A DNA stretch of 64,000 nucleotides from Collinsella sp. BA40 (GTDB lineage: Bacteria > Actinomycetota > Coriobacteriia > Coriobacteriales > Coriobacteriaceae), in contig NZ_VOWY01000002.1 in the NCBI RefSeq assembly GCF_008014645.1, forward strand, positions 1 through 64,000, read 5' to 3'. Under the pieces are notes generated by a model that was not told the DNA's origin, made no database searches, and saw only the letters and a list, made by a program, of their open reading frames with translations. Shown here piece after piece: positions 39,224 to 50,408 of the stretch. The position numbers and the translations under genes are program-made. Positions within the stretch are counted from its first letter, which is position 1, and every line of letters starts with the position of its first letter.

Positions 39224-39412
39224 CTACTCCTTGCGCTCGCGCTCTTCCAACGCGCGCTTCAGCGCCTCGATGTCCTCGCTCGTGTGCTTGGATTTCTTCC
39301 ACAGCGAGAACACGTACACGAACAGCGTGAGCCAGATGCCCACATACGCGGCGAGCACGAACGGAGCCGCCGGCAATACGGTCGAATAGACCTCGGAAAG
39401 AATCGCATCCAT
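39224..39412 (-). CDS. CcmD-like small membrane protein
   Basis: A 62-residue protein with one transmembrane helix (FVLAAYVGIWLTLFVYVFSLW) and a basic, then charged, cytoplasmic tail (KKSKHTSEDIEALKRALEERERKE). Size, topology and place immediately after ccmC fit CcmD, the small subunit that helps release holo-CcmE from the CcmABC complex. Sequence identity in this family is always low, so the call rests mainly on context. AAGGAGG overlaps the end of ccmC. Confidence 0.75.
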   Translation of the reverse strand: MDAILSEVYSTVLPAAPFVLAAYVGIWLTLFVYVFSLWKKSKHTSEDIEALKRALEERERKE

Positions 39413-39414
39413 GG

Positions 39415-40299
39415 TTAGTCCTCCTTGCTCGGGTTCTCGTCATCGGCGCGGGCGGCGACAGCCGACGCGTCGCAGGCAGCTTCGCGCACCACCTCGACCG
39501 CGTGCCGCGCGCTCAGGCGCTCGAGCGCCGCGGCCGCCGCGCGCTCGTTCGCACGGGCATCCAGCTCTTCCAGCTGCTCTTTCAGCTCCTCGACCGCCTG
39601 GGCATCGCCATGTACGCGCAGCGCATAGCGGTACAGCGCGAAACCGATCATGAGCATGCCGAACAAGCCCAGCAAAAACGGGATCAGCATCATGGGCGGC
39701 AGGCCGCTATCGGTGCGGAACACCACCGGATGGATCGACGAGGGCACCAAGCGCGTGATGAAGAACGAGATGGGCGCGTCGATGAACGCGATGATTCCGA
39801 AGACCGCGCAGAACCGCGCGCGCTTCTCGGGGTCGTCGATGGCGTTGCGCAGGATGAAGTACCCGATCACCAGCAGCATCAAGATGAAGTACGTGGTAAG
39901 CCGCGGCTCCCACACCCACCACACGCCCCACTCGAAGCAGGTCCACAGGTCGCCCGAAATCATGGTTGCCACGATGAAGACGAGCGCGACCTGGGCCGCG
40001 ACATAGGCGCGCAGGTCGTACGCACGGTCCTTGGTCATGAGGAAGCGCACGCCGTAGTACGCCAGAAACGCCATCACGACGAACGAGGCGATGGCCACCG
40101 GAACGTGCAGGTAGAAGATCTTCTGGCTGAGCAGAAGCTTGGTGGTGACCATCTGGCCGGCAATCACCACGGGCTCGGAAAGCTGGGCGCCCTGGACCAG
40201 CGGAGCCAGCGTGAACGTCCATACCACGTCCACCGCGGTGAGCACCGCGCCCAGAAGCAGCAACAGCGGAACAAGTCGATCGGCTTTCGATTGCACCAT
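39415..40299 (-). CDS. ccmC: Haem-handling protein CcmC
   Basis: A 294-residue six-helix membrane protein. It presents haem to CcmE through its Trp-rich motif, here WTCFEWGVWWVWEPRLTTYF, flanked by His residues (LHVPVA and SSIHPVVF). The N-terminal 230 residues match CcmC. The last 60 residues are a charged helical tail rich in Glu and Ala, longer than usual. It is fifth in the unit ccmE-F-A-B-C-D. A 132-base gap separates it from ccmB. Confidence 0.92.
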   Translation of the reverse strand: MVQSKADRLVPLLLLLGAVLTAVDVVWTFTLAPLVQGAQLSEPVVIAGQMVTTKLLLSQKIFYLHVPVAIASFVVMAFLAYYGVRFLMTKDRAYDLRAYVAAQVALVFIVATMISGDLWTCFEWGVWWVWEPRLTTYFILMLLVIGYFILRNAIDDPEKRARFCAVFGIIAFIDAPISFFITRLVPSSIHPVVFRTDSGLPPMMLIPFLLGLFGMLMIGFALYRYALRVHGDAQAVEELKEQLEELDARANERAAAAALERLSARHAVEVVREAACDASAVAARADDENPSKED

Positions 40300-40431: not shown

Positions 40432-41181
40432 CTAGGCGTCCACCACGAACTCGTAAAGGCCCCAGGCCGCGGCGATCATGACGACGTCGTAGACGAGCGC
40501 CACGCCGCACGAGGTCCAGAAGGTCCCCATAGTGCCCTCCACACCCAGAAACGCGCAGGTGGTCGCCGAAACGCAGGCGTAGAGCAGCGGAAAGGCCACG
40601 GGAATGAACAGGATGGCCAGCAGCACGTCGCGACCGCGCGTTTCGATGGTCATGGTGGACAGCAGGGTGCCCACGCCGGCGACGCCCACCGTGCCGACAA
40701 GCAACGGCACCGCGATGAGCGGGGTCGTTGCCGCGAGCTCGGCGCCCGAGAGGAAGAACAGGAAGAACAGCGGAACGACGACGACCTCTACCGCCAGCAA
40801 GAACAGCAGGTTGCTAGTTGCCTTGGCCAAAAAGATCACCGCGCGGTCCACGGGCGCCAGCAGGATGCCCTCCAGGCAGCCCGACTCCGTCTCGTGCCCG
40901 AAGCTGCGGTTGAGACCTAGCAGGCTCGTGAAGATCACAAGCGCCCACAGCAGGCCGCCGGCAAACGACACCACCTGGAGCTTATCGCCCACCTGCGCGA
41001 GCGCGGCGCCGTAGATGGTGAGCACCAGCAGCGCGTACACGCCCATGGAGGTGAGCATCTCGCGCGTGCGAAGCTCCTGGCGCACATCCTTTGCAAGCAA
41101 GGCGCGATACTGGGCCAGCGCACGCGGCGCCCGGCCGCCGGAACCTTTCGCGCAGACGCGCTCGTTCTCGATACGGGACAC
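40432..41181 (-). CDS. ccmB: Cytochrome c maturation ABC permease CcmB
   Basis: A 249-residue six-helix permease subunit of the CcmABCD complex. It has the family segments YRALLAKDVRQELRTREML, LNRSFGHETESGCLEGILLAPVDR and the Pro/Gly-rich middle helices. The complex uses ATP to release haem-loaded CcmE. GTG 41181 follows the ccmA stop by two bases, which implies translational coupling; the frame remains open upstream into ccmA sequence but is not real there. Confidence 0.92.
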   Translation of the reverse strand: MSRIENERVCAKGSGGRAPRALAQYRALLAKDVRQELRTREMLTSMGVYALLVLTIYGAALAQVGDKLQVVSFAGGLLWALVIFTSLLGLNRSFGHETESGCLEGILLAPVDRAVIFLAKATSNLLFLLAVEVVVVPLFFLFFLSGAELAATTPLIAVPLLVGTVGVAGVGTLLSTMTIETRGRDVLLAILFIPVAFPLLYACVSATTCAFLGVEGTMGTFWTSCGVALVYDVVMIAAAWGLYEFVVDA

Positions 41182-41183
41182 GG

Positions 41184-41921
41184 TTACGACACCCCCGTTC
41201 CAACGGTTGCGAGGTACAGGTCGCGGAAGGCCGCGGCGTCGACGCGCTCTTTCTCGGCGCACACCACCACGCGGCCGCGCGCCAGGATGAGCGCGTGCGA
41301 GCACATGGCGAAGCCCTTCTCGAGGTCATGGCTCACCATTACGAAGGTGCGGCCGTCGCGCACGCGCCCGATGAGCTCGTCGAAGAGCTCGGCCGCGTGC
41401 GGGTCGAGGCCCGAATACGGCTCGTCCAGCAAGACGAGCTCGGGGTCGTTCACCAGCGCGCGGGCAATGGAGAGCCGCTGCTGCATGCCGCGCGAGAAGG
41501 TGCGCGCGCAGTCGTTGCACCGATGGTCGAGCTCGACCAGGCGCAGCAGCTCGTCGATGCGCGCCTCGTCGACGTCGCCGTACAGCGAGGCGAAGAACCG
41601 CAGGTTCTCGCGGGCCGTGAGGTCGCCGTAGAGCATCGGCTTATGCGAGATAAGGCCGATGCGGGAGCGCAGCGAGTCCGGCTCCTCGAGCGCATCGACG
41701 CCCAGCAGCGACAGCTCGCCGCGCGTGGGGCGCGAGAGCAGCGCCAGCATGCGCAGGAGCGTGGTCTTTCCGGCGCCGTTGGGACCGAAGATCGACAGGA
41801 AGGCGCCGGACGGCACCTCCAGGTCCACGCCATCCAGTCCGCGACGACGGCCGAACTGCTTCACCAGGCCGCGGGCGCTCACCGCGAGCGGGGCCGCGGA
41901 ACCGTCATGCGCGCTAGCCAC
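41184..41921 (-). CDS. ccmA: Cytochrome c maturation ATPase CcmA
   Basis: A 245-residue ABC ATPase. Walker A GPNGAGKTT, the Q/H-loop segment ISHKPMLYGDLTARENL typical of CcmA, signature FSRGMQQRLSIARAL, and Walker B ELVLLDEPYSGLD. It powers the CcmABCD complex. The GTG start at 41921 overlaps the end of ccmF by 8 bases and has AAGGG upstream; the ATG further up lies inside ccmF. Confidence 0.93.
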   Translation of the reverse strand: MASAHDGSAAPLAVSARGLVKQFGRRRGLDGVDLEVPSGAFLSIFGPNGAGKTTLLRMLALLSRPTRGELSLLGVDALEEPDSLRSRIGLISHKPMLYGDLTARENLRFFASLYGDVDEARIDELLRLVELDHRCNDCARTFSRGMQQRLSIARALVNDPELVLLDEPYSGLDPHAAELFDELIGRVRDGRTFVMVSHDLEKGFAMCSHALILARGRVVVCAEKERVDAAAFRDLYLATVGTGVS

Positions 41922-44085
41922 GGCGGTCGCCCTTCGCCGATGCGGCAACCGGCTCGGACGATGCGCCCGCTGCGGCGCGCTCGTCGGCTGCCAGCAGCGG
42001 CGTGGCGCGGCGCGGCGCGAACGCCAGCACGATGCCCAGCACCGTCACGCCCGCGCCGATCCAGTTGAACAGGATCAACGGGTTGATCTTCACGTTGACG
42101 GACAGCGCGCCGTTCGCATTCAGGCCCTGGAACGCCACGAACAGGTCCTCCATGGGGAAGGTGAGCACGCCGGCGTGCAGCGTCTGCTGACCCGTGTTGG
42201 AAGCCCTCACCTCCATGGACGGCGCGAGCGTGCCCAGCTGGGCGCCGGTCGACGCGTCCGTCACGGTTAGCGTGACCTCCTTGATGAGGTCGTCGTTCGA
42301 ATCGGTGTATTCGCGCTGGCCCGCAAACGTCAGCTCGTACGCGCCCACGCGGCCGCTCGTGCCGGGCTTCGCCTCGAGGTCGAGCGTCTGCTCCTGGACG
42401 TACATGGACGAGCCAACCAGACCCACCAGCACGATGGCGACGCCCAGATGCGTGAGGTAGCCGCCGGCCTGGGCCGGGGAGCGGCGGAACAGGTTGCAGG
42501 TTGCCAGCACCGGGTTCTCGCCCTTGTTGCGCATACGGGCTCGCACGCCGCGCGACAGCAGGTACAGCGAGGACGTGAACAGCAGCGCCGCCGCAGCGAA
42601 GCCCAGCACCGTGAGCGCGAAGTAGTACAGCTTGGGACCCTGCTCGACCAGCGCCCGGGCGGCCGGGCCGCCCGCCGCCACGATGGCATCGTACTCGGGC
42701 ATGAACTTCGTCACGAACAGCGCCATCAGCCCGGCGAACAGCACGGCGCCCGAGACGAGCGGCACGCGCATGGTACGGGCGAACGCCGCACCGTCGGTCT
42801 TGCGCCAGCCCAGCATGGGGCAAACGGCCATGAGCAGGCACAGCAGCGTGCCCACCGGACGCGCCACCGCGCTGTAGGCGCCGGCGGGAATCACCTTGCC
42901 GCCCAGCGGCATCCACGTGGGCAGCGCGCTGCAGATGGTGAGGTAGGCCACGAGAACGGCGGACACGATCATGACCAGGTTGGTGATGTAGTAGGAACCG
43001 TTCTTGGAGACGAGGGACTCGATCTCGTCGTCATCGTCCATCTGGCCGTGGCGATAGAGCAGGCCGATGAGGAAGGCCATGCCCGCCGCAACCATGATGC
43101 CCAGGAAGAAATACGTGGACACGGGGTCCTCGGCGAAGGCATGCACCGACTGCACCAGGCCGGAACGCGTGATGAACGTGCCCAGCACCACGAAGATGAA
43201 GGTGATGGTGGCGCTGAACATGCTCCAGCGCTTGAAGCAGCCGCGCTTGCGGTAGAGCGTGAAGCTGTGGATGAGCGCCACGCCGGTGAGCCAGCTCATG
43301 AGGCTGGCGTTCTCCACGGCGTCCCATGCCCAGAAGCCGCCCCAGCCCAGCACCACATAGGCCCACACGGCGCCCAGCGCCATGCCGATGGTAAGGAAGA
43401 TGAAGCTGAAGACGGCGTAGCGGTCGCACAGCTCGACCCAGCGGGCGGACAGGTCGCCCGTGATGAGGGCCGCCATGGCGTAGGCGAACGGGATGGTCAT
43501 GCCGGCGTAGCCGATGAACGTCGCCGGCGGATGCAAGATCATGGCCCAATGCATGAGCAGCGGGTTCATGCCGCCGATCTTGCCGGCCAGCGTGCCGTCG
43601 GCGTTGAGGAACTCGGGCGCGGTGGCCATGAACGGGTTGTTGGACTCCGAGAAAACGAGGGTGGCCGCGAACAGCGCCACGATGATCTGCGCGACGGCGA
43701 GGGCGCTGCTGGACAGGCCGTCCGTGGCGCGCATGCGCTTCCACGCCACGACGCTGCCGAACAGCGAGATGAGCCAGGTCCACAGCAGCAGCGAGCCCTG
43801 GCGGCCCGCCCACACGGCCGATACCTCGTACAGCGGCTTGAGTGCGCTATCGGTATTGGGATAGTTCGACACCACATAGGCCAGGCTGTAGTTCTCCGTC
43901 ACGAAGCAGGCCAAGATGATGGCGATGCACAGCGTGAGGGCGATGGTGGTGCCGAACACCATGAGGTAGCCGGCGTTGACCAGGCGCTCGCGGCGCCCCT
44001 TCACGCCGACCAGCAGCACCGCGGCGCTCAACAGCGCCGCCAGCATGGCAAAGACCTGCAGGCCGTTTCCCAGCATGGAAACCAT
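41914..44085 (-). CDS. ccmF: Cytochrome c haem lyase subunit CcmF
   Basis: A 723-residue multi-pass membrane protein with about 14 helices. It carries the CcmF Trp-rich haem motif WGGFWAWDAVENASLMSWL, GRQGSLLLW and HPPATFIGY, with conserved His residues. It transfers haem from CcmE to apocytochrome Cys pairs on the outer face of the membrane. AAGGAG lies 8 bases before ATG 44085. It follows ccmE by about 145 bases. No CcmH or CcmI gene accompanies it, although these usually assist CcmF in proteobacterial system I. Confidence 0.95.
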   Translation of the reverse strand: MVSMLGNGLQVFAMLAALLSAAVLLVGVKGRRERLVNAGYLMVFGTTIALTLCIAIILACFVTENYSLAYVVSNYPNTDSALKPLYEVSAVWAGRQGSLLLWTWLISLFGSVVAWKRMRATDGLSSSALAVAQIIVALFAATLVFSESNNPFMATAPEFLNADGTLAGKIGGMNPLLMHWAMILHPPATFIGYAGMTIPFAYAMAALITGDLSARWVELCDRYAVFSFIFLTIGMALGAVWAYVVLGWGGFWAWDAVENASLMSWLTGVALIHSFTLYRKRGCFKRWSMFSATITFIFVVLGTFITRSGLVQSVHAFAEDPVSTYFFLGIMVAAGMAFLIGLLYRHGQMDDDDEIESLVSKNGSYYITNLVMIVSAVLVAYLTICSALPTWMPLGGKVIPAGAYSAVARPVGTLLCLLMAVCPMLGWRKTDGAAFARTMRVPLVSGAVLFAGLMALFVTKFMPEYDAIVAAGGPAARALVEQGPKLYYFALTVLGFAAAALLFTSSLYLLSRGVRARMRNKGENPVLATCNLFRRSPAQAGGYLTHLGVAIVLVGLVGSSMYVQEQTLDLEAKPGTSGRVGAYELTFAGQREYTDSNDDLIKEVTLTVTDASTGAQLGTLAPSMEVRASNTGQQTLHAGVLTFPMEDLFVAFQGLNANGALSVNVKINPLILFNWIGAGVTVLGIVLAFAPRRATPLLAADERAAAGASSEPVAASAKGDRRG

Positions 44086-44230: not shown

Positions 44231-44902
44231 CTAAGCCTTGATAGACGAATCGATCGAGGGCTGCTCGGTGGCGATGAAGGAGCCGTCGGAATCCAGGTGG
44301 CCGGAGATGACCACCGCCGTGCCGTCCTTGATCTGCTCGTCCAAGCCGCCGTCGTACACCACGTCGAGCGTGGCGCCCTGCGACTCGATGGTGAAGCGGT
44401 ACGCAGCCTGGGCATCGTTGACGGGCCCCTGGACGTAGCCGCACACCTTGGTGTCCTTGAAGAGCATGGTGTCGGCCTGGTCGAACAGGCCCTTCACGGT
44501 GAGGGAGCCCTCGGCGCTCTCGTACTTGGAGGGGCATTTGGTCACCATCTCGGTTGCAAGCAGGGTCTTTCCCTCAACGGTGCCGGTGCAGATGGCCACC
44601 ACGCCCGTACCGAAGGTCGCGGGAAGCGCGCCGTTGTACTGGACCTCGAGCTGATCGGCCCCGGCGTCGTCGCCCTCGGGCTCGATCTTGAAGATGGCCG
44701 TAGCCCCCTCGCTGGCAAGCGAGTCCGCCACCACCGAGCCGGAAACCTGGACCTTCTTGCCCTCGTACGAACCGCCCAGGACGTCGGCGATGGAAAGCGA
44801 CGACGCCGCTCCGCCGGAACCGGCCACGGCGACGATCACGAGCATGGCGATGACCACGATGCCGCCCACGACGACCAGGCGGCGCTTTGCCTTTTTATTC
44901 AT
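44231..44902 (-). CDS. ccmE: CcmE haem chaperone with CxxxY motif and duplicated OB fold
   Basis: A 223-residue protein with an N-terminal anchor helix (10-28) and two OB-like halves outside. The first (about 37-128) ends ...TLLATEMVTKCPSKY; C123 and Y127 form the CxxxY motif that replaces the His-binding HxxxY of classical CcmE. The second half (about 136-216) repeats the same pattern (LDVVYDGGLDEQIKDGTAVVISG, then FIATEQ) but lacks the Cys. Family members are normally about 150 residues with one OB fold. It is first in the ccm unit. GGAG precedes ATG 44902 by about 9 bases; a GTG at 44920 is less likely. Confidence 0.82.
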   Translation of the reverse strand: MNKKAKRRLVVVGGIVVIAMLVIVAVAGSGGAASSLSIADVLGGSYEGKKVQVSGSVVADSLASEGATAIFKIEPEGDDAGADQLEVQYNGALPATFGTGVVAICTGTVEGKTLLATEMVTKCPSKYESAEGSLTVKGLFDQADTMLFKDTKVCGYVQGPVNDAQAAYRFTIESQGATLDVVYDGGLDEQIKDGTAVVISGHLDSDGSFIATEQPSIDSSIKA

Positions 44903-45013
44903 TTTGCGTCTACTCCGCACCTAGATAGAGGGTCGAATGCAATGATTCAGTATACAATGAGCGCTCGCACTTACCGCAAATCATAAGCAATTGCGACCCA
45001 AAATGGAGACACC

Positions 45014-49372: not shown

Positions 49373-50257
49373 TTACCACTCGCGGGGCGAAGCATTTGAG
49401 AAGAGATACTCCTCGGGGTCGGCGGTCATGCTCGGCAGCCGCGCCCACGGATCGTCGGCCAGGTCGGTATCGACCGGCCCGTCGACCGGTTCGTCCGCCG
49501 GTTCTCCGGCCGGTTCGTCCGCCGGCTCGTCCACAGGTTCCCCAGCTGGTTCGTCGGCTGGTTCGCCGGCCGGTTCGTCCGCCGGTTCTCCAGCTGGTTC
49601 GTCAGCTGGTTCGCCAGCCGGTTCGTCGCCCGGGTCGTCGGCCGGTTCTCCATCCAACACGTCATCGGACTCGTCGGCGGGCTCGACATCGGGCTCGTCG
49701 GCGTCGTCGAAACAGGCCGTATCATCGTCGAGACCAGCATCCTCGCCGCACGCGCGCTCGTCGGCACCACGGTCCAGGTCGCCTTGATCGTCGGAGGCCG
49801 CCTCGGCGCGCGCGGCCAGACGCCACACCGCCGCTGCCGCCGCGCTCAACACAAGCGCGAGCACGCCGAAAAACAAGTCGAACGCCTTGATGAAACCGGC
49901 GTCGAACGCGCTATCCGCAACGCCGAACGTCGAGGTTGCGACCCCTGCGAAGATGGCGGCCGCGGGCGCCAGGGCCGCTGCGGCGAAAGCGGACATACGG
50001 CGCGGGGCGATGCACGCCCACAGGCCCAGCACCCCCGCCGCCAGGAACAGACCGAACAGCGCCAGGGCGTAGGCGATGATGACGCGCGTCCCATGGACCT
50101 CGGCCTCGCTGAACAAGCCGCTGATAACCGCATAATGAATCCCGGCAAGCGCCAGGTACACCAAGCTGGCAGCGATAAGGCACGCGCAGCCCATCTTGAT
50201 AAGAAACGTCAGACACCGTGTCCAAAGCGCAGCGTCATCCTCGTGCGCCAAACCCAT
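49373..50257 (-). CDS. Four-helix membrane protein with acidic Pro-Ala repeat tail
   Basis: A 294-residue protein of unknown function. Four transmembrane helices fill residues about 14-145 (LIAASLVYLALAGIHYAVIS is the first). A long acidic cytoplasmic or external tail follows: Asp/Glu-rich, then tetrapeptide-based repeats EPADEPAG about nine times, VDTD, and a folded-looking end (TADPEEYLFSNASPREW). At the DNA level the repeat is a 12-base tandem array with drift. ATG 50257 has GGGGGATGG upstream. The gene probably shares a transcript with the sirtuin gene that follows. Confidence 0.7.
   Translation of the reverse strand: MGLAHEDDAALWTRCLTFLIKMGCACLIAASLVYLALAGIHYAVISGLFSEAEVHGTRVIIAYALALFGLFLAAGVLGLWACIAPRRMSAFAAAALAPAAAIFAGVATSTFGVADSAFDAGFIKAFDLFFGVLALVLSAAAAAVWRLAARAEAASDDQGDLDRGADERACGEDAGLDDDTACFDDADEPDVEPADESDDVLDGEPADDPGDEPAGEPADEPAGEPADEPAGEPADEPAGEPVDEPADEPAGEPADEPVDGPVDTDLADDPWARLPSMTADPEEYLFSNASPREW
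49486..49660. repeat. 12-bp tandem repeat array within the membrane-protein gene
   Basis: Degenerate tandem copies of a unit such as CCGGTTCGTCCG (12 bases, encoding about four residues) run for roughly 175 bases in frame. Copies vary at third positions, e.g. GGTTCTCCAGCT beside GGTTCGTCGGCT, so length change would keep the frame. Confidence 0.75.
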
Positions 50258-50379
50258 GCGACCATCCCCCGATCGTGCGGTAGCCACTGGTAACGAATCC
50301 CGTCGCGCCCCCTGAGGCGCGCGGTTATTCAAGTATAGATGCCGCCCCTTGGGAATAGTCAACAAACTTGCTTGCAATT

Positions 50380-50408
50380 TTGTCATTTACAGCAAGCCGT
50401 TCTATCGT
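50380..50408 (+). promoter_or_regulatory. Sigma-70 promoter of xthA
   Basis: TTGTCA and TATCGT are 17 bases apart, which puts transcription start about 70 bases before the xthA ATG. It lies in a locally AT-rich stretch. Confidence 0.65.

Follow-up and report, generated by a model that had tools for sequence, protein, structure and literature searches.

The haem chaperone CcmE is encoded at the head of a ccm operon in the 64,000-nucleotide stretch of Collinsella sp. BA40 DNA analysed here (hereafter the window), and in this protein the haem-attachment motif is followed, after a short strap, by a second OB domain. The gene lies on the minus strand, where its start codon (M1) stands at 44902 and the reading frame comprises 223 codons; the plus-strand reading of 44231-44902 is not CcmE. 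An earlier sequence-only reading of this DNA had named no strand and had placed CPSKY at residues 123-127, and in the minus-strand frame the motif is found at exactly these residues. The gene and its parts are as follows:

44231-44902, minus strand: ccmE, 223-residue tandem-OB haem chaperone (reading frame; PF03100 matched twice over cut-off)
44819-44896, minus strand: N-terminal membrane-anchor helix, residues 3-28 (AlphaFold2 secondary structure)
44537-44803, minus strand: OB1, residues 34-122 (PF03100, 55.5 bits; alignment to E. coli CcmE 1sr3)
44522-44542, minus strand: haem-attachment motif TKCPSKY, residues 121-127 (58/58 species; C123 codon at 44534-44536)
44504-44521, minus strand: six-residue strap from Y127 to OB2, residues 128-133 (length six in 58/58 species)
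44264-44503, minus strand: OB2, residues 134-213, a CcmE-type barrel without a haem motif (PF03100; independent fold; Foldseek)
44396-44398, minus strand: R169, invariant OB2 arginine (58/58 species)

Both halves of the protein matched the Pfam CcmE model PF03100 (cut-off 24.6 bits) in the same open frame, with 86.7 bits for the whole protein, 55.5 bits for OB1 and 33.6 bits for OB2 in situ. When scored alone, OB2 reached 35.2 bits, and all 56 of the homologous OB2 domains scanned also matched CcmE. Profile-profile comparison of OB1, with its tail removed, against OB2 gave a probability of 98.9% (E 1.5e-17, 77 columns, 26% identity). AlphaFold2, run with 58 sequences, predicted the membrane helix at residues 3-28 and two separate OB barrels with a mean pLDDT of 89.8, the placement of the barrels relative to each other being unsure (pTM 0.53, linker pLDDT about 71). 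OB2 predicted on its own was again an OB barrel (pLDDT 89.8, pTM 0.80). The top Foldseek match of OB2 in the PDB was 8ce8_E, the CcmE of the E. coli CcmABCDE complex, a protein that likewise begins with a transmembrane helix (PMC10457321), and OB1 was superimposed on E. coli CcmE 1sr3 over 88 residues (Z 13.0, rmsd 2.4) and could be aligned to 8ce8_E as well. Many nucleic-acid-binding OB proteins were also among the fold-search matches, which is uninformative on function.

The Collinsella protein shows the features of the CcmE family, namely the PF03100 match, an N-terminal anchor followed by an OB barrel, and CXXXY just after that barrel. A chance or frame artefact was rejected because both halves lie in one open frame and the homologues are conserved. 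The tandem two-barrel anatomy is firmly supported: the internal duplication into two OB halves proposed by the sequence-only reading is borne out by the domain scores, the OB1-OB2 comparison and the predicted structure, and the fold has two OB domains in place of the single OB domain with an unrelated tail that was considered as the opposing outcome.

ccmE is the first gene of a minus-strand operon, ccmE-F-A-B-C, with coaX divergent upstream. The remaining genes of the operon are:

41914-44085, minus strand: ccmF, haem lyase with intact WGGFWAWD motif (PF01578 and PF16327 over cut-off)
41184-41948, minus strand: ccmA, ABC ATPase (PF00005, 109 bits; TIGR01189 ccmA, 125.5 bits of a 131.6 cut-off)
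40432-41187, minus strand: ccmB, start codon uncertain (PF03379, 85.9 bits)
39415-40299, minus strand: ccmC, WWD motif WGVWWVWEPRL (PF01578, 78.3 bits; motif)
39224-39412, minus strand: ccmD-like gene for a 62-residue single-TM protein, directly after ccmC (hydrophobic small ORF)

The sequence-only reading had missed the small ccmD-like gene at 39224-39412. No Pfam model matches its 62-residue product; the label reflects the presence of a protein of like make-up after ccmC in 57 of 60 related loci. The gene order ccmE-F-A-B-C is kept in most loci of the class Coriobacteriia that are long enough to show it. Opposite directions of ccmE and ccmF-A-B-C were seen at one locus only, L142. In Collinsella vaginalis (L070) ccmE adjoins coaX, and none of ccmF, A, B and C was detected in the next 8 kb downstream; this ccmE may be an orphan, or the assembly may be broken here. 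About three quarters of the class members have Glu in place of Asp in the WWD motif of CcmC, which then reads WWxWE (window 39415-40299, loci L066-L145). A scan for sigma-70 promoters around the gap 44903-45013 found none. Elsewhere in the window, a predicted protein at 49373-50386 (minus strand) has an acidic repeat of the type DEPAGEPA in its C-terminal part.

The genome (1.93 Mb, 99.99% complete) was searched with family models and with one CxxCH-pair pattern. PF03100 identified no second CcmE. For CcmH (PF03918) there was no match at all in this genome and none over cut-off in 67 genomes of the bacterial family; CcmI and ResB (PF05140) were not found in the genome, and nothing in it scored over the dsbE/CcmG cut-off. 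Since ResB is absent, the pathway does not classify as System II (CcsBA/ResBC). The genome does show features of System I*: Cys for His in the sole CcmE, with CcmA, CcmB, CcmC and CcmF present and CcmH absent. CcmH absence is not universal, as about one third of Cys-type systems have CcmH (PMC3601427). The sequence-only reading had assigned the locus to System I* and had noted CcmG, CcmH and CcmI to be outside the window; both points hold, and neither an HxxxY CcmE nor a CcmH, which would have spoken for a classical system, was found elsewhere in the genome. A role of the protein as haem chaperone in a System I*-like pathway is well supported. On contig C8 a CcdA-like protein adjoins a TlpA-like thioredoxin that scores 43.3 bits, against the 123 needed for CcmG, and this pair could supply reductant.

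The codon search for CxxCH pairs, which is independent of protein families, pointed to one place in the genome, which shares its contig with ccmE at a distance of about 122 kb (L148:1012-1692, plus strand; contig C12 near 166558). The cytochrome encoded there has 226 residues, a membrane anchor and five haem motifs, one of them CX3CH and another CX4CH, and adjoins an AFOR-type (aldehyde-ferredoxin-oxidoreductase-type) oxidoreductase. The search for multihaem c-type cytochromes suggested by the sequence-only reading thus yields a client gene for the Ccm system. Within the bacterial family a CxxCH pair was present in 23/23 genomes with CcmE and in 14/31 without (p 1e-5); the 14 CcmE-negative genomes may represent false positives or cytochromes matured otherwise.

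The nearest named relatives are Collinsella species, at about 75-77% identity. CcmE was found in 170 of 298 genomes of Coriobacteriia, and at least two CcmE matches in 166 of these 170, the tandem state being read from an alignment for 31 of these proteins and for 57 from named records, and from match counts for the rest. The four exceptions comprise a tandem protein whose OB2 is divergent (L155), two genes truncated where their contigs end (L156 and L158) and a genome in which only an insert in CcmF, described below, was seen (L159). OB2 is kept in frame in every intact class member seen, about 85 genera. On these alignments and counts, every CcmE seen whole in Coriobacteriia is tandem, and the form is a class-wide fixed trait. 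An oddity of one strain was rejected as an explanation because the tandem form was found throughout the class. One genome (G129) has an extra 141-residue CcmE-like frame apart from its tandem ccmE (L168:1447-1869, minus strand), which matches the OB1 profile only.

Outside the class, two matches in one frame occurred in 0/145 CcmE-bearing genomes of the phylum sample; the eleven genomes with two CcmE matches have them in separate genes. CcmE is single-OB in the nearest class found (three genomes), and the single-OB CcmEs of neighbouring classes carry CPSKY in some cases and HXXXY in others. Two plasmid matches, from Metabacillus and Cytobacillus, cover OB1 only. A search of PubMed Central, whose coverage mostly excludes subscription papers, found no paper on CcmE in Coriobacteria, Eggerthella CcmE being mentioned only in passing, and, among the matches listed, no description of a duplicated, fused or tandem-OB CcmE; with this coverage, absence from the papers is not proof of novelty. 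The tandem-OB CcmE appears to be new, though sequence databases will contain such proteins. CXXXY CcmEs and System I* are already known (PMC3601427, PMC9084895).

In a domain tree built from an alignment of 98 columns only, OB1 (97/88), OB2 (100/97) and OB1 together with OB2 (97/82) were each supported as groups among single-OB Cys-type CcmEs. The tree fits one duplication or fusion before the Coriobacteriia diversified, with OB1 and OB2 as probable ancient sister copies. Five loci of other Actinomycetota (L057, L058, L064, L151 and L162) have a pair of adjacent but separate ccmE genes, both single-OB. Like the tandem form, such pairs encode two CcmE OB units in one locus; unlike it, the two units are distinct proteins, and each of them has a membrane anchor. 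In the pairs of L057, L058 and L064 both proteins have a Cys motif, one CPENY or CPDNY and the other CPSKY. The tandem form may have arisen by fusion of two such neighbours, as a tree that groups OB2 with the second genes of adjacent pairs was not rejected (AU p 0.22).

The stretch between the barrels is fixed in its motif and in its length. TKCPSKY is invariant in 58/58 species (the window CcmE and 57 proteins from named records); a further 31 class proteins that were aligned are all tandem and carry TKCPSKY in all but one, which has CPTKY. From Y127 to L134, the first conserved hydrophobic residue of OB2, the strap measures six residues in 58/58 species, and almost every other measured segment varies in length. 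In E. coli the haem-bearing residue stands in a flexible C-terminal tail (PMC10457321, PMC6204919); compared with that free tail, the haem-bearing segment of the tandem CcmE would be tied at both ends. This clamped arrangement is read from strap length only, because the placement of the barrels in the model is unsure.

An OB domain of this kind was also found outside CcmE. In two genomes of one family (G109 and G133), CcmF contains an additional OB domain, about 80 residues long, inserted in a periplasmic loop; the other CcmFs compared have only a short loop at this place. The two frames are:

L167:214-2667, plus strand: ccmF with OB insert (G109)
L159:565-2730, minus strand: ccmF with OB insert (G133)

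The insert scored over the Pfam CcmE cut-off, and the OB2 profile scored better on it than the OB1 profile. In a tree it was placed beside OB2 of the same family (99/94), and grouping with OB1 was rejected (AU p 0.036). It is without an equivalent of R169. No OB insert beyond those of G109 and G133 was found in the 130 CcmF frames searched. A copy of OB2 that moved from CcmE into CcmF suggests that OB2 may work at the contact between the two proteins.

The reading that we prefer, with a probability of about 0.5, is that this is a System I*-type CcmE in which the barrel was doubled in an ancestor of the Coriobacteriia, haem is held between OB1 and OB2, and OB2 acts as a platform at CcmF. Haem would be delivered by CcmABC(D) and bound covalently by C123 of CcmE, with Y127 the likely axial ligand. 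This step is presumed by analogy with relatives for which it is established: the Cys of CXXXY is the residue by which Cys-type CcmEs bind haem in Desulfovibrio and Methanosarcina, and CcmABCEF is sufficient in Methanosarcina (PMC3601427, PMC9084895). The haem may then be held between OB1 and OB2, because the segment that bears it does not end freely at the C-terminus but runs on, as a short strap, into a second barrel. OB2 itself attaches no haem and would dock and shield at the hand-over to the lyase CcmF, without CcmH or CcmI. CcmF would then attach haem to multihaem cytochromes c, the five-motif cytochrome by the AFOR-type enzyme being one example. The whole role given to OB2 here is putative. 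In general the chemistry does not depend on OB2, as Desulfovibrio and Methanosarcina have working single-OB Cys-type CcmEs (PMC3601427, PMC9084895). We infer that the tandem CcmE may handle haem or partners differently, and the constant strap length and the CcmF insert lend this some support. More tentatively, it is possible that in Coriobacteriia the haem is caged between the two barrels and that OB2 replaces CcmH and CcmI as a dedicated CcmF docking module, which was copied into CcmF in one lineage.

OB2 is the less conserved barrel, with a mean entropy of 1.79 bits versus 1.52 for OB1, and has no conserved Cys or His. The sequence-only reading had stated that the second half has no Cys; C154 is in fact present, though in just 13/58 species and outside any haem motif. 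Most of the conserved residues of OB2 are Gly or core positions, G155 and G201 being invariant. Such a pattern would suit a domain that is mainly a structural stabiliser, or a spacer suited to a Gram-positive envelope, and does not specifically touch haem, CcmC or CcmF. We consider this doubtful, since R169 is invariant (58/58; F170 nearly so) and the strap is of constant length, both of which exceed the needs of a spacer, other Actinomycetota classes have single-OB CcmEs, and a copy of OB2 has been inserted into CcmF.

OB2 could also provide a second docking surface for CcmC or CcmB while haem is loaded, with OB1 and the motif kept free for a later step. In E. coli, D101 and E105 of CcmE are part of the CcmC-binding surface (PMC6204919). 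Aligned by eye, OB2 has E189 and D193 at these positions, each acidic in 53/58 species, where OB1 has A/S and N/D/T. The loops were aligned at 22-26% identity, however, so the residue mapping is only suggestive; the E. coli CcmC partner residues D47 and Q50 were not seen on inspection of the window CcmC sequence, and the single-OB Cys-type CcmEs of the phylum are mostly without the first acid too, which makes this docking role unlikely. That OB2 is a decaying, functionless duplicate would agree with its lower conservation and lack of a haem motif but is highly improbable for a domain that is in frame and folded in all intact class members, across about 85 genera, with R169, G155 and G201 invariant.

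Among the Coriobacteriia are the gut bacteria Eggerthella and Gordonibacter, whose reductases linked to multihaem cytochromes act on drugs and dietary compounds. Vectors and a transformation method are available for E. lenta (PMC9734109). Koppel et al. could not obtain haem c in the Cgr1 protein of E. lenta when other hosts were used, and they suspected that maturation factors were incompatible (PMC5953540); a class-specific maturation system with a tandem CcmE would be a concrete candidate for this incompatibility. How CcmE releases covalent haem to CcmF is a long-standing question, and a haem segment tied at both ends would restrict the possible mechanisms and give clean mutants.

Among the known systems close to the Collinsella protein are the System I* CcmEs of Desulfovibrio and archaea, represented by the D. 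vulgaris OB domain (PDB 2kct), its best sequence match among solved structures (39.7 bits). They share with it the membrane-anchored OB domain, the CPSKY-type motif and the lack of CcmH; they also work without classical CcmG, as the Collinsella system may. CPSKY is the commonest Cys-type form of CcmE, found in 25/36 bacterial genomes (PMC3601427), and also occurs in single-OB CcmEs, so the motif itself is not new and the tandem OB is the new part. E. coli System I CcmE (1sr3; 8ce8 chain E) shares the TM helix and OB fold but has HXXXY, with the covalent His in a flexible tail, and one OB, and needs CcmG and CcmH. The Desulfovibrio and archaeal proteins also have one OB, with their Cys in a short free tail, whereas in Collinsella a second OB follows after a six-residue strap. 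By its domain sequence, the Collinsella CcmE is a tandem-OB variant, distinct from the single-OB subtype of Desulfovibrio and archaea.
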